From an uncultured Veillonella sp. (GTDB lineage Bacteria; Bacillota; Negativicutes; Veillonellales; Veillonellaceae), in NCBI GenBank assembly GCA_934216375.1, contig CAKQBP010000004.1:1-21565 (forward strand): 21,565 bases of DNA, given 5' to 3'. The first letter of the stretch is position 1. Each line of letters begins with the position of its first letter. This document shows, one piece after another, positions 1-21,539 of this stretch. Both the position numbers and the translations under genes were made by a program. The notes under the pieces are model-generated. The model was not told the DNA's origin. It made no database searches and worked only from the letters and a program-made list of their open reading frames with translations.

Positions 1-568
1 ATGAATCTTCTAAACGAGATATTGTCATACGTACATGATGAGTAAACCCGGCATGAAAACACAATGCCACAATAGCCACGCAAAGACCAGAAGCAGTTGC
101 GACAAGGGCTTCCCCCACACCACCGGTAATAGCAGTAGGTATCGCACCGTCAGCACCGAACACCTGAAAGGCACCGATCATCCCCGTTACAGTACCAAGC
201 AATCCTAATAATGGTGCTATCGTAACAATGGTAGAGAGCCAATCAAGACCACGGGAAGCGTGCGTATAAACATGGGCCACCATATCCTCCATTTTGGATT
301 GCAATACATTGCGATCATGACACTGTCCAAGCACGCGAGTCAGATTATACGAAATATTAGCTGTATATTTAGATTCTAAGCTAGTTAATAAGGATTGCCA
401 ATTTATTTCGCTCTCTTCTAATGCATCATTCAAAGCAAACATTTCCCGCTTCAATTGTCGATAATAAGCTATACGTTCTATCGCTATAGCTACGGTTATG
501 ATAAGTGCCACTAGTAGCGGCCACATAACAAATCCACCATGTAAGAATAATTCCCAAGCCTCTTTCAT
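1..568 (-). CDS. ExbB/TolQ/MotA-family proton channel protein (3' end cut by window)
   Basis: About 189 codons are present; the C-terminus runs off the left edge. I translated it directly from the minus strand. It starts MKEAWELFLHGGFVMWPL, with a hydrophobic helix at about residues 10-30, then a charged cytoplasmic loop. A second helix contains the typical IAPLLGLLGTVTGMIGAF stretch, and a third contains the GGVGEALVATASGLCVAI region. These two stretches are the ExbB/TolQ/MotA signature. Such proteins form an inner-membrane proton channel that energises TonB- or Tol-type machines, or biopolymer transport, across a diderm envelope. The start is supported by AAAGGAGG upstream. An exbD partner would be expected just past the left edge. 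ExbB cannot be separated from TolQ without that neighbour. Confidence 0.9.
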   Translation of the reverse strand, partial: MKEAWELFLHGGFVMWPLLVALIITVAIAIERIAYYRQLKREMFALNDALEESEINWQSLLTSLESKYTANISYNLTRVLGQCHDRNVLQSKMEDMVAHVYTHASRGLDWLSTIVTIAPLLGLLGTVTGMIGAFQVFGADGAIPTAITGGVGEALVATASGLCVAIVALCFHAGFTHHVRMTISRLEDS

Positions 569-17508: not shown

Positions 17509-18507
17509 TTAGATGCTTTCAATAGCAGCGATAGCGGCAACATCTACAACGTCTTGAGCGGAGCAACCACGGGAAAGGTCATGAACTGGTTTAGCCAAAC
17601 CTTGAATCAATGGGCCAAGAGCATCAGCGCCGGAGAAGCGTTGTACCAATTTGTAACCGATGTTAGCAGCTTGAAGATCAGGGAAGATCAAGATGTTAGC
17701 TTTACCAGCTACGTTGGAGCCAGGAGCTTTCTTTTCTGCTACGGAAGGAACGATGGAAGCGTCCAATTGTAATTCGCCGTCGAATTTGAAGTCAACATTG
17801 CGTTCTTTCAAGATGTTAACAGCTTCAACCACTTTATCTACTTCAGGAGTGGAAGCAGAACCTTTTGTGGAGAAGGACAACATGGATACGCGAGGATCAG
17901 CCATGCCAACAACTTTGCGAGCTTTTTCTACAGTGGATTCTGCGATATCAGCTAATTGTTCGCTAGTTGGGTTAGGCAATACGCCACAGTCGGAGAAGAT
18001 GAGTACGCCATCATCACCATATTCTTTTTTATTTGTGAACATAATCATTGTGGAAGATACAGTTTTAAGACCTGGTTTAGTACCTACAACTTGTAATGCA
18101 GCGCGCAATACGTTTGCAGTTGGGCAAGCAGAGCCAGCAACCATGCCGTCTACTGTACCAAGGCGAACAAGCATAGCACCGAAGAACAAGCAATCACCTT
18201 TCATAGTTGCATCAGCCTTTTCAGGAGTCATACCTTTTTTAGCGCGCAATTCTACGAATGTATCAACCATTTCTTGGTAACGATCGTAGTTAGCAGGATC
18301 GATGATTTCAGCACCTTCAATGGATACACCAACAGCTTTAGCAGCTTCAGCGATTTCAGCAGGGCTACCAACGAGTACAGGTGTTACGAAACCTTCTTTC
18401 AAAATAATTTCAGTTGCTTTCAATACGCGTTCATCTTTGTATTCTGGCAACACGATTTTTTTACCTAATGGTTTTACTTGGTCTTTTAATTTTTGAATTA
18501 AATCCAC
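17509..18507 (-). CDS. pta: Phosphate acetyltransferase
   Basis: 332 residues, the size of the short, single-domain Pta. A GTG start (VDLIQKLKDQVKPLGKK) is chosen because AAGGAGG lies eight bases before it. Diagnostic segments are KIVLPEYKDERVLKA at the start, FFGAMLVRLGTVDGMVAGSACPTANVLRAALQVVG in the middle, and GLAKPVHDLSRGCSAQDVVDVAAIAAIES at the end. It converts acetyl-CoA and phosphate to acetyl phosphate and CoA in the cytoplasm, which acetate kinase uses to make ATP. No ackA is adjacent on either side. It has its own promoter inside the 3' end of the upstream ATPase gene, so it need not depend on that gene. Confidence 0.96.
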   Translation of the reverse strand: MDLIQKLKDQVKPLGKKIVLPEYKDERVLKATEIILKEGFVTPVLVGSPAEIAEAAKAVGVSIEGAEIIDPANYDRYQEMVDTFVELRAKKGMTPEKADATMKGDCLFFGAMLVRLGTVDGMVAGSACPTANVLRAALQVVGTKPGLKTVSSTMIMFTNKKEYGDDGVLIFSDCGVLPNPTSEQLADIAESTVEKARKVVGMADPRVSMLSFSTKGSASTPEVDKVVEAVNILKERNVDFKFDGELQLDASIVPSVAEKKAPGSNVAGKANILIFPDLQAANIGYKLVQRFSGADALGPLIQGLAKPVHDLSRGCSAQDVVDVAAIAAIESI

Positions 18508-18553: not shown

Positions 18554-18582
18554 ATTATAGCAAGTTAACGACTCTCTAACAA
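18554..18582 (-). promoter_or_regulatory. Promoter of pta
   Basis: On the minus strand TTGTTA (18577-18582) and perfect TATAAT (18554-18559) are 17 bases apart. The -35 and spacer lie in the last codons of the ATPase gene. A small inverted repeat, TGGC-N5-GCCA, follows in the leader just before the ribosome site. Confidence 0.75.
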
Positions 18583-19779
18583 CCATTCTAAAACATTTCG
18601 TTGTTGAATTCCGTCGTAGTTGGCATTTTTATTTAGTTCATCTAAGGTGAGCAAAAACTTAGAGTATTGGTCTTGTACCGCCTCAAGCGGTGCTAGTTCT
18701 CGGCTCAAAGTATTAGAGTCAAGTACGGTCTCACTAACTTGATAATATTCGGTAATCCCCCCTTTTTGTGCTACAAAATCTATTTCACCCTTAGCCAATT
18801 GCCCTACATATACGGTGTATCCTCGTCTAATGAGCTCTAGAAAAACGATATTTTCTAGTATATGACCTGTATCACGACTCGCATTCCCCACTAGCAAATT
18901 TCGTAATGTTACATCAACACTATAATACTTTGCATTGATACGTAGTAATTCTTTACCTCGTACGTCATAGCGATTTACCTTATATAACAACAAGCTATCC
19001 TGTAATCCTTGTAAATACCGTTCTACAGTTTTATTATCGATTTTTCGACCTGCACTAACGAGAGAGTTGGCTATTTTATTTGGTGAAAGTAAACTACCAA
19101 TATTTGCCATAATATACCGCACTATATCTTGTAAAATTGTGACATCATTAATTTTCAATCGAGCCACAACATCATGCAATAACAAAGTATTATATAATCC
19201 ACGTAAATATTCTTGAATATCAAAGTCTTCGCCCCCTAATTGCTGAGTATAAGGGAAGGAACTTTCACGAAGATAGGCCTCATAGGCAGGAATCAAAGAA
19301 TACTGATTACCCTCATACTTGCTATGGTAAAACTCACTGAAGGACAATGGCAACATCTGAATTTCCACATATCGTCCAGTCAATAATGTGGCGATATCAG
19401 AAGACATAAAGTATGCATTGGAGCCCGTAATATATAAATCTGTGTTCTCTTTTACAAACAAGCTATCTACGACACGATGAAATTGATCTACATGCTGAAT
19501 TTCATCAAGAAAAATGTAATTCGTTTCATTAGGCTGCATACGTTCTAAAATATATTGATACAACGCATGGTAATCTCGCAAATGCTCGTATTCCAATTCT
19601 TCAAAATTAATGGAAATAATCTGTTCAGGCTTCACATTATCTGCCAATAACTCATCTTTAACCAGCCTAAACAATGTAGATTTACCACAACGGCGTATGC
19701 CTGAAACGACCTTAATAATAGGCCGCTCTCGATTACGCCGTAAAAAATCTAGATATCCTTGGCGCTGAATTAACTTCAT
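18565..19779 (-). CDS. AAA-type ATPase with C-terminal DUF4143 domain
   Basis: 404 residues from MKLIQRQGYLDFL. The ATG at 19779 follows GAGGAGG by five bases; 22 upstream codons are rejected. The P-loop is GIRRCGKST (27-35), and Walker B is YIFLDEIQHV with D92-E93. A sensor-like ITGSNAYFMSS and the LPLSFSEF segment typical of this family come next. The C-terminal DUF4143 domain ends with an HILENIVFLELIRRGYTVYVGQLAKGEIDFVAQK stretch; its E-I-D and final K resemble a PD-(D/E)XK core. Such proteins are widespread and mobile in prokaryotes and poorly characterised; defence or toxin-like roles have been suggested for relatives but none is shown here. No DNA-binding domain is obvious. A repeat array lies directly upstream. 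Confidence 0.9.
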   Translation of the reverse strand: MKLIQRQGYLDFLRRNRERPIIKVVSGIRRCGKSTLFRLVKDELLADNVKPEQIISINFEELEYEHLRDYHALYQYILERMQPNETNYIFLDEIQHVDQFHRVVDSLFVKENTDLYITGSNAYFMSSDIATLLTGRYVEIQMLPLSFSEFYHSKYEGNQYSLIPAYEAYLRESSFPYTQQLGGEDFDIQEYLRGLYNTLLLHDVVARLKINDVTILQDIVRYIMANIGSLLSPNKIANSLVSAGRKIDNKTVERYLQGLQDSLLLYKVNRYDVRGKELLRINAKYYSVDVTLRNLLVGNASRDTGHILENIVFLELIRRGYTVYVGQLAKGEIDFVAQKGGITEYYQVSETVLDSNTLSRELAPLEAVQDQYSKFLLTLDELNKNANYDGIQQRNVLEWLLESR

Positions 19780-19840
19780 AAGGGCCTCCTCATCTATGTA
19801 CCTTCTCATAGATGGAACCCATGTATTAGTACTATCAGAT

Positions 19841-19849
19841 ATCATATCA
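19841..19849 (-). promoter_or_regulatory. Extended -10 promoter element of the ATPase gene
   Basis: TGATATGAT on the minus strand fits an extended -10 (TGn plus TATGAT), about 60 bases before the ATG. No good -35 is present at the right distance; the nearest copy of the palindromic repeat occupies that place. Confidence 0.45.
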
Positions 19850-19863
19850 CTTACCTAATAAAT

Positions 19864-19959
19864 TTGGATTCCAATCCAACTTTATATTAATTTTATCATA
19901 AAGTTGGATTTCATTCCAAATTTTTATTATTTTAAGTATAAAATTGGATTAGATTCCTA
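19864..19959. repeat. Three palindromic repeats at exact 40-bp spacing
   Basis: Copies are TTGGATTCCAATCCAA (19864-19879), TTGGATTTCATTCCAA (19904-19919) and TTGGATTAGATTCCTA (19944-19959). Start-to-start distance is 40 bases both times. On the minus strand similarity continues a few bases past each palindrome (NTTTAT). Halves of copies 1 and 2, with their flanks, also make a perfect 13-bp inverted repeat (19873-19885 with 19898-19910) and an outer 8-bp one (19861-19868 with 19915-19922). The array is centred near -38, -78 and -118 of the predicted ATPase promoter, so tandem operators are the best reading. The rest of the 19780-20124 gap is AT-rich and empty. Confidence 0.8.
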
Positions 19960-20124
19960 AAGTTTTACTTTAAATTTTAACATACAGCACTTCAATTAAT
20001 GTTTATCCATGAACTACATACCAATAATTGAACTCTTTACACATAATACGCTACAATAATAGAAACAAAATACGGATAGCCAAATGCCAATTTATAGTCC
20101 TTATACACCCATTTAGGAGGTCTT

Positions 20125-20802
20125 ATGGCGAATACAGAGACAACGATCAACGCTGTTATACATCCAAAATACAATGACACACCTATAGACATAGAGAAAA
20201 CAATTAAAGCCTTGGAACGCAATAATTTTGTAGTCCATTATTTCGAAACAGGTACTGAAGCTATTTCCTATTTAAAAGATCGTATTCAAAACAAACATGT
20301 AGCCATCGGGGACTCTCGCACGTTACTAAAACTCAACGCTTATGAAGCCCTATCCGAAGTCAACGAAGATGTAACGGATATTCAACGTCCCCTTCCTGGT
20401 GAAAGCTTCCGCGACACCGCATTGCGCACCATGGGGCGTGATGTATTTCTCACCTCAGTCAATGCTCTTGCTCAAACGGGGGAAATGGTCAATATTGATG
20501 GTACGGGTAATCGTGTTGCCGCCTCACTCTTTGGCTCTCAAGAAGTATTTTTTGTGCTAGGCATCAACAAAATTACGCCGGATTTAGCTTCCGCCATCTA
20601 TCGTGCACGCAATGTGGCCGCTCCGCTCAACAGCAAAAAGAACAAAAAGAGCTCTCTCAATCCATGTGCCACATTAGAAGAGAAATGCTATGACTGTGGT
20701 TCTCCCGACCGCATATGTAATGCATTAACCATTTACTATAAAAAGATGCGCAATATGCAAACCATGGAAGTCATCATCATTAATGAATCTTTAGGCTTCT
20801 AA
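20125..20802 (+). CDS. LUD-domain protein (LutC/YkgG-like, DUF162)
   Basis: 225 residues from MANTETTINAVIHPKYN, with TTAGGAGG seven bases before the ATG. The LUD fold is shown by VAIGDSRTLLKLN, the VFLTSVNALAQTGEMVNIDGTGNRVAA core (about 107-133) and the FFVLGINKITPDLASAIYRARNVAAP helix. A C-terminal extension carries C181, C188, C191 and C198 (C-x6-C-x2-C-x6-C), a plausible metal or Fe-S site. Relatives with the Lut operon oxidise lactate, but no lutA or lutB is adjacent, so a role in lactate use is only a suggestion. It appears monocistronic and overlaps the convergent XRE gene by 23 bases. Confidence 0.88.
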   Translation: MANTETTINAVIHPKYNDTPIDIEKTIKALERNNFVVHYFETGTEAISYLKDRIQNKHVAIGDSRTLLKLNAYEALSEVNEDVTDIQRPLPGESFRDTALRTMGRDVFLTSVNALAQTGEMVNIDGTGNRVAASLFGSQEVFFVLGINKITPDLASAIYRARNVAAPLNSKKNKKSSLNPCATLEEKCYDCGSPDRICNALTIYYKKMRNMQTMEVIIINESLGF

Positions 20803-21055
20803 TTGTTTGCGGCCCATTCAAAAAATCTTGTATATTCATTTCTCCAAGTCCATACACTACTCTATAAATTGTGGACCACCGAGGATCTACGGCACCACTT
20901 TCAAGATCACTAATATAAGATTGGGCTAAACCAGATTTATCTGCCAATTGATATTGAGTCATTCCCAATTGTCTGCGCCAAAGTAAAATCAATACACCAA
21001 GCTTGTGAACTTCTTGTCGAACTTGTAGATCTTGACAACATACGATAGGATTCAT
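20780..21055 (-). CDS. Small XRE-family helix-turn-helix regulator
   Basis: 91 residues from MNPIVCCQDLQVRQEVHKLG, with GAGG five bases upstream. The five-helix HTH domain spans about 17-80: LGVLILLWRRQLGMTQYQLADKSGLAQSYISDLESGAVDPRWSTIYRVVYGLGEMNIQDFL, with TQYQLADKSGLAQSYISDLESG as the turn and recognition helix. The variant DPRWSTIYRVVYGLG replaces the more usual NPTLxTLxKIAxAL. There is no ligand-binding domain. The last codons lie within the LUD gene's end on the other strand. Its targets are unknown; the repeat array at 19864-19959 is one candidate to test, with no direct evidence. Confidence 0.88.
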   Translation of the reverse strand: MNPIVCCQDLQVRQEVHKLGVLILLWRRQLGMTQYQLADKSGLAQSYISDLESGAVDPRWSTIYRVVYGLGEMNIQDFLNGPQTIRSLKIH

Positions 21056-21488: not shown

Positions 21489-21539
21489 AAGGGGCTGTAA
21501 CAGAATGCGGTTTTACCGCATTCTAGTTACAGTCCCTTT
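21489..21539. terminator. Long hairpin near the right edge
   Basis: Nested stems AAGGG/CCCTT, CTGTAAC/GTTACAG and AGAATGCGGT/ACCGCATTCT form one nearly perfect hairpin of about 22 pairs with a three-base loop. T runs on both sides are short, so a terminator for a gene beyond the edge is likely but a structured RNA or repeat element is possible. Confidence 0.55.

Follow-up and report, generated by a model that had tools for sequence, protein, structure and literature searches.

A palindrome array with 40-bp spacing upstream of a Veillonella PDC-S01 ATPase gene as the probable operator of the ATPase itself

The array and the ATPase gene

The stretch of DNA analyzed here (the window, 21,565 nucleotides of a contig from an uncultured Veillonella sp.) contains three closely similar palindromes upstream of a gene encoding an AAA_14-DUF4143 ATPase, and the question that it raises is which protein reads these sites and with what effect on the gene. 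The sequence confirms the three palindromes and their period of exactly 40 bp, as described in an earlier note on this DNA (Table 1). The pattern TTGGA-N6-TCCAA, with at most one mismatch, has three matches in the whole window and all of them are array copies, compared with a mean of 0.76 matches in shuffled versions of the window, where three of 100 shuffles reach three matches if the spacing is ignored. The statement that the copy nearest the gene is the only perfect one is correct within the window and does not extend to the other Veillonella loci with an orthologous ATPase gene, all four of which have TTGGATTCCATTCCAA, which is not a perfect palindrome, at the position of copy 1. The long imperfect cruciform that had been read from copies 1 and 2 does exist as an inverted repeat (19860-19890/19893-19923) with 31-nt arms that are 84% identical, and it arises because two palindromes stand in tandem. 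This repeat is what could be said for chance palindromes or for a structural DNA or RNA element, such as a cruciform or an attenuator, and such an explanation is almost certainly wrong given that the spacing of the copies is kept while the spacers diverge, that no Rfam match to a structural RNA was found in 19700-20200, and that the 40-bp period recurs in the ATPase family, as described below. A separate long inverted repeat with a short T-run at its end, which by eye is terminator-like, is located at the end of the window (21490-21539).

The ATPase most likely starts at the ATG at 19779, which is preceded by GAGGAGG and for which a start at 19845 was set aside, and the array is therefore located 85-180 bp upstream of the start codon. 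Copy 1 overlies the -35 position (19864-19869), 17 bp before the putative -10 element, TATGAT (19846-19841). The earlier proposal that this copy takes the place of the -35 in front of an extended -10 is thus retained as far as the position is concerned; the TG of the extended -10, however, is missing from the orthologues of G011 and G014. The -35 within copy 1 is itself poor (ATCCAA on the minus strand). The leader of the ATPase gene also contains an inverted repeat, CATCTATG/CATAGATG, at 19791-19814 that overlaps the ribosome-binding region.

Table 1. Positions of the features discussed in the text, in window coordinates.
Feature	Position	Strand	Basis
pta (phosphate acetyltransferase), GTG start	17509..18507	-	sequence
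Promoter-like site of pta: TATAAT with TG, 18559-18554; -35-like TTGTTA, 18582-18577	18554..18582	-	sequence
AAA_14-DUF4143 ATPase (PADLOC PDC-S01), most likely start ATG 19777-19779	18565..19779	-	sequence, PADLOC, Pfam
PD-(D/E)XK-like C-terminal region of ATPase, residues 301-378	18646..18879	-	model; fold name inferred
Predicted winged helix-turn-helix of ATPase, residues 213-287, proposed array reader	18919..19143	-	model pLDDT 90.5, Foldseek/VIA
Recognition helix, residues 249-261 (K250 codon, 19030-19032)	18997..19035	-	sequence, model
AAA+ ATPase domain, residues ~1-172	19264..19779	-	Pfam AAA_14 at 22-150 and structure model
Ribosome-binding GAGGAGG of ATPase	19785-19791	-	sequence
Putative -10 of ATPase promoter, TATGAT	19841..19846	-	sequence, inferred
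Array copy 1, perfect TTGGATT-CC-AATCCAA, TTGGATTCCAATCCAA	19864..19879	no strand	sequence
Array copy 2, TTGGATT-TC-ATTCCAA, TTGGATTTCATTCCAA	19904..19919	no strand	sequence
Array copy 3, TTGGATT-AG-ATTCCTA, TTGGATTAGATTCCTA	19944..19959	no strand	sequence
LUD-domain gene	20125..20802	+	sequence
XRE-type HTH protein, candidate binder of the earlier note	20780..21055	-	sequence

The ATPase (404 aa) contains Walker A and Walker B sequences (GIRRCGKST and FLDE) and consists of AAA_14 followed by DUF4143 (PF13173, E 1e-34, and PF13635, E 1.7e-18, both above the curated cut-offs). It matches the PADLOC model PDLC04787, that of PDC-S01, over residues 1-402 (E 4.6e-155), which makes it a candidate anti-phage protein, and neither it nor the LUD protein has an NCBIfam match at E 0.001. 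It is 99% identical to the ATPase of V. parvula SKV38, and the genome in the comparison set nearest to the window (G001) has 59% of sampled 31-mers in common with it. The earlier note saw no DNA-binding domain in this protein and took an outside factor to be implied. In the predicted structure (a model rather than a solved structure), the DUF4143 region takes the form of a winged helix, and the Pfam winged helix-turn-helix family MCM_C matches residues 239-270 weakly (E 0.0016; 18.7 bits, where the cut-off is 27); because the DUF4143 region is modelled in this way, an outside factor is not implied. In the C-terminal region, E332, D334, and Q347 are invariant in A1, the canonical Lys was not seen, and PDDEXK_5 matches weakly in two of 29 family members (Pfam). 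Since the structural comparison tests residues 1-302 well and the remainder barely, the PD-(D/E)XK-like assignment rests on the order of secondary structure and on these weak Pfam matches.

Distribution of the array in Veillonella and its relation to pta

A pattern of two copies with a 24-bp gap and at most three mismatches was found in 11 of 14 Veillonella genomes (in G007 at three mismatches only, and in G012 with one additional three-mismatch match elsewhere), while the reversed control pattern had one match in the same 14 genomes, in G006. With at most two mismatches, 12 of the 61 genomes of the order have a match, 10 Veillonella together with G043 and G047 (the latter at two mismatches and with no ATPase nearby), and the control has none. 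Neighboring copies are always 40 bp apart in the 11 mapped loci that have at least two copies (the window and 10 genomes), and the spacers between them have diverged. Nor is the motif scattered at random, the outcome that the earlier note had named as speaking against it, as 14 of the 15 exact matches to TTGGAWTNNAWTCCAA in nine Veillonella genomes are array copies. The only exact match outside the array in these nine genomes is at G004:C7:8405-8420. A regulon of single sites was also considered and set aside: at up to one mismatch there are 45 sites outside the array in these nine genomes, while the reversed control pattern has 27, and a few single sites, such as TTGGATGTAAATCCAA and TTTGAATACATTCCAA, recur between species.

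All three copies are found before the ATPase orthologue in each of the four other Veillonella genomes that have one (G001, G009, G011, and G014), and these sequences support the suggestion that the ATPase gene is accompanied by a spaced operator array. The distribution of the gene itself is patchy: at the 12 mapped loci the ATPase is present in five (the window included), reduced to a 3′ remnant in one (G008), and absent from six. The remnant in G008 (L102 9667-9813) lies between the array and pta and is the trace of a lost ATPase copy. The array without an ATPase at the locus occurs in G003, G004, G007 (one full and one degenerate copy), G010 (two copies), G012, and G013, and at the ATPase-less loci it begins ~90-140 bp upstream of the pta start codon. 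No ATPase relative was detected at E≤0.001 in G003, G004, G012, and G013, the palindrome cores of which are 90% identical compared with 56% for the inner spacers (6 pairs), and these orphan palindromes therefore look constrained. Four genomes in which no ATPase relative was detected have thus retained an array that looks constrained, which counts against the array being the operator of the ATPase itself and is not explained by that reading.

The same data can be taken to mean that the host regulates pta through the array, with the neighboring XRE protein or another Veillonella regulator as the binder, and that the ATPase gene merely landed between array and pta. Consistent with this, every one of the 12 mapped loci that contain a full copy or more has the array upstream of pta, with an XRE gene following it; this position holds where the ATPase is absent and where the LUD gene is elsewhere, as in G008 and G010, in both of which the array remains at pta beside an XRE gene; the orphan cores are conserved as just described; and no second array was found at up to two mismatches in any of the 14 Veillonella genomes. 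Against it, the 40-bp architecture precedes ATPases of this family in other phyla with other neighbors, and overall we consider this explanation unlikely. An operator of pta or the LUD gene read by the XRE protein was in fact our first hypothesis and it fitted the Veillonella maps; it was dropped as the main reading because the same spacing appeared before ATPases elsewhere. The XRE protein, put forward in the earlier note as a possible binder, is located beside the array in all mapped Veillonella loci and is nonetheless a weaker candidate, as the array of G014 is accompanied by an XRE protein of only 48% identity, no array is present in G006 even though an XRE relative (46%) is located beside its pta gene, and the same spacing is seen before ATPases in many other genomes. 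The two XRE comparisons are not decisive, since the helix core QSYIS is common to all 13 XRE rows. Of 53 relatives of the XRE protein, only two carry names, both of them Veillonella.

In the window the -10 of pta (TGCTATAAT) comes after the ATPase stop codon and the -35-like TTGTTA, at a spacing of 17 bp, lies inside the 3′ end of the ATPase gene. Where Veillonella lack the ATPase, the pta -10 is preceded by another sequence, which is conserved among them. The pta promoter thus differs between the ATPase-bearing and ATPase-less states. An RNA-seq study reports that V. parvula pta was down 5.7-fold in coaggregates with S. gordonii (PMC6529473), so that pta levels do change. The retrieved passages of the literature on Veillonella pta and its regulators describe no such site.

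A history that is compatible with a self-operator is that the ATPase brought the array with it and that, after loss of the gene, the array was kept as an element of pta, or else that gain and loss of the ATPase recur within species and thereby keep the arrays under selection. The patchy occurrence of the ATPase is in keeping with this history, as is the finding that copies 1 and 2 are nearly identical between G001/G009 and G011/G014, all of which have the ATPase, and that copy 3 differs between the two groups. We hold it as a tentative but quite possible account, because the sample contains one genome per species and the pta tree is too poorly resolved for gains and losses to be counted. The orphan arrays can accordingly be read in two ways, as the sites of a second reader at pta or as the result of an ATPase gene coming and going within species.

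Arrays with 40-bp spacing in the ATPase family and the recognition helix

The lead beyond the genus came from L201 in G043, where TTTGGA-type sites 40 bp apart directly precede an ATPase that is 54% identical to that of the window, and the upstream regions of other relatives contained other motifs at the same spacing. For the family scan, 151 entries (the window, L011-L059, L201, and L204-L303) were filtered for at least 100 bits, a near-complete N terminus, at least 200 bp of upstream sequence, and at least 300 aa, giving 127 entries in 79 clusters at 80% identity. When periods of 20-70 were compared, the best palindrome pair had a period of 39 or 40 in 28 of the 79 clusters, among them 17 of the 18 clusters that scored at least 26. 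Fourteen plasmid loci, picked for taxonomic spread from 240 records with a match, were added to the clusters, and 92 of these 93 loci could be counted (one lacked 300 bp of upstream sequence). At a pair score of at least 25, period 40 was found in 21 of these 92 non-redundant loci, period 39 in six, and period 41 in one, and each other period from 20 to 70 in at most one locus. Stretches from far upstream (n=90), from downstream (n=88), and from within the gene (n=92) served as controls together with shuffled sequence (n=92), and none of them gave a pair with this score at period 39-41. With a looser rule, in which the best score is at least 24, the period was 39-41 in 28 of 37 real upstream regions, versus one of five shuffles, none of four far-upstream regions, and none of four downstream regions. 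A held-out set comprised the 20 clusters that remained of 61 loci with a usable start once 41 that were at least 80% identical to earlier loci or to each other had been removed; here period 40 was found in five and period 39 in one (a locus may count under two periods), with no other period represented, and 19 stretches from far upstream and 19 from downstream gave no match whatever the period. No pair with a score of at least 24 was seen in 78 of 113 loci, which means that not every family member has the array, or that the copies have in many cases degenerated too far to be recognized.

The 35 array-bearing loci have two (18 loci), three (11), four (4), or five (2) copies by the extension rule. 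They include loci of Succinivibrio and of a Chitinispirillales MAG, plasmids of Ruminococcus, Streptococcus, Monoglobus, Lactobacillus, Enterococcus, and Moraxella, and also viral contigs. TTTGGA-N6-TCCAAA arrays are present in Succinivibrio (L045) and in G043 (L201), and at least one such site in MAGs named Endomicrobium, Alphaproteobacteria, and Azobacteroides; a Veillonella paralogue (67% identity) has a TTAGGTTTTAAAACCTAA-type array, L037 a TTTCGA..TCGAAA array, and L366, upstream of its ATPase, a series of five sites close to TATCAGTTATAACTGATA that follow one another at 39-40 bp, the cleanest long array seen. Relatives with a GRT helix (L018-L022) have no clear array, a weak 40-bp pair with a score of 23 being present in L018. 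In the archaeal relative from Metallosphaera (L059), TTGGGAGTACACTCCGTA and TTGGGAGTACACTCCACA are repeated upstream of the ATPase at 34 bp rather than 40. The check suggested in the earlier note, whether the motif tracks the DUF4143 ATPase genes, therefore comes out differently for the 40-bp architecture, which recurs in the family, for the motif, which differs by subfamily, and for the array in Veillonella, which survives also without the ATPase. G014 has two ATPases (L014 and L033), and the array in front of each has a motif of its own, an arrangement that argues against a single host factor common to both.

The position of the arrays also bears on the sign of regulation. In the 35 loci the center of the nearest copy lies a median of 47 bp upstream of the start codon (quartiles 27.5-63), for which reason activation, the effect that had tentatively been suggested, looks less likely than repression. 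Direct activation by an outside factor at the -35 would make sense of a copy 1 that coincides with a poor -35 at 17 bp from TATGAT; yet the nearest copy is centered 16-30 bp before the start codon in 11 of the 35 array-bearing loci, which is better suited to blocking, and the winged helix-turn-helix is predicted in the ATPase itself, and we regard such activation as very improbable.

If the ATPase reads its own array, the sequence of the palindrome may be expected to vary with the recognition helix, and statistically it tracks the residue aligned to K250, with exceptions, when this residue is compared with the half-site consensus of the 35 loci. Lys goes with GG after TT[TA] in seven of 10 loci (eight if the best copy of L044 is counted), Arg with TTGCA in three of four, Asp with TCGA in two of two, Glu with TATCAG/TnTAAG in three of five, Asn with TTTC in four of four, and His with TTGGAA in two of three. 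The exceptions are L258, L306, and L044 (pair consensus) for K250, L329 for R250, L213 and L025 for E250, and L039 for H250, and K250 accompanies both TTTGGA and TTAGGT. Pairs of loci with the same residue are more alike in motif (0.568, 74 pairs, versus 0.266), and the partial correlation with the motif is 0.307 for residue 250 and 0.311 for the recognition-helix window 248-253, each reached in 0 of 2000 permutations and with relatedness only partly corrected. In a tree built without the winged helix-turn-helix columns, the TTTGCA motif occurs in three separate places (L210, L205, and L034), each time with R250. For the K/GG association, well supported branches give only four independent pairs (on average 2.8 concordant, 0 discordant, and 1.2 without a difference), from which no significance is possible; the motif states for this tree comparison were set by hand for 36 rows that include near-duplicates and single-site loci. 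The maximum over all windows in a first covariation scan of 27 loci was not significant (134/1000), and in an unbiased window scan residues 17-22 rank above the recognition helix (0.368 versus 0.348). These residues (RERPII, 19714-19731) thus correlate with the operator sequence as strongly as the recognition helix does. Of seven motif predictions made beforehand for plasmid relatives, one was partly right (L306) and six were not confirmed, no such array being found. The guess that Asp or Glu at this position goes with CGA was not confirmed for the plasmid relatives; only the Asp loci (2/2) have TCGA, and the Glu loci have mostly TATCAG/TnTAAG.

A proposed mechanism and its relation to known systems

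Based on the family-wide spacing and the predicted structure, we put forward the proposal that the array is probably the ATPase's own operator, bound cooperatively through its predicted winged helix-turn-helix in negative autoregulation. What would be looked for in such an operator appears to be present, namely copies upstream of the gene's own start that are kept with the gene, as far as the compared sequences indicate, and a product that is modelled with a DNA-binding domain. We propose that two ATPase protomers engage each palindrome as a pair, using the winged helix of their DUF4143 regions, and that the 40-bp spacing lets neighboring bound pairs touch so that an AAA+ oligomer could form on the DNA. 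As copy 1 covers the -35, bound protein would keep RNA polymerase off the -35 or the core promoter and would thereby hold expression of the ATPase low, along with any read-through into pta. Release would occur perhaps when the ATPase changes its nucleotide state or is engaged by an invader. Binding, stoichiometry, cooperativity, the sign of regulation, and the trigger are all what we infer for this scheme.

Regulation of this general kind has well-known counterparts. Lambda cI and the repressors of toxin-antitoxin systems use several palindromic operators over their own promoter for cooperative repression, as in the proposal made here, from which they differ in that the proposed reader is an AAA+ ATPase and the spacing is fixed at 39-41 bp. 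Archaeal Orc1/Cdc6 initiators mark replication origins, whereas the sites described here are in the gene's own promoter region and have a motif that varies by subfamily, and the rmsd values are high (10.0 and 8.5). The archaeal AAA+ ATPases SSO1545 (2fna) and PABY2304 (2qen) are 14-20% identical to the window ATPase, and to our knowledge no cognate DNA arrays have been described for either of them. A loose precedent for the combination of an ATPase with a DNA-binding domain is IniR, reported to have an ATPase domain modelled on SSO1545 and a DNA-binding domain at its end (PMC5760070).

A more far-reaching version of the proposal, which we put forward as speculation and consider quite improbable as a whole, is that PDC-S01 ATPases on a 40-bp lattice made up of their own palindromes form a DNA-bound AAA+ ring or filament, with a protomer pair per palindrome, that is itself the sensor. 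Binding, cutting, titrating, or replicating past the lattice by an invader would free the ATPase and start the response, several ATPases in one cell would be kept independent by a code in which residue 250 is the main letter, and Veillonella would have retained the orphan arrays at pta as tripwires, or as landing sites for an ATPase gene that is repeatedly gained and lost.

PDC-S01 has been reported to rank fourth in frequency among the defence systems of prokaryotes as a whole, most PDCs still awaiting validation (PMC12988326), and to be the most frequent individual locus in rumen genomes (PMC13356809), and a Thermus gene with 'AAA 14, DUF4143, HTH motifs' is located downstream of a CRISPR array (PMC4406477). 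The passages retrieved from these three papers on PDC-S01 or DUF4143 mention no operator array, and a full-text search of the open-licence PMC literature, within the passages that it returned, gave no report of 40-bp arrays before PDC-S01/DUF4143 ATPases. The Veillonella array is thus one example of a pattern that precedes many genes of a large, uncharacterised candidate anti-phage family, and an array of fixed spacing together with a candidate specificity residue would provide a concrete handle on what the PDC-S01 ATPases bind and how they are controlled.
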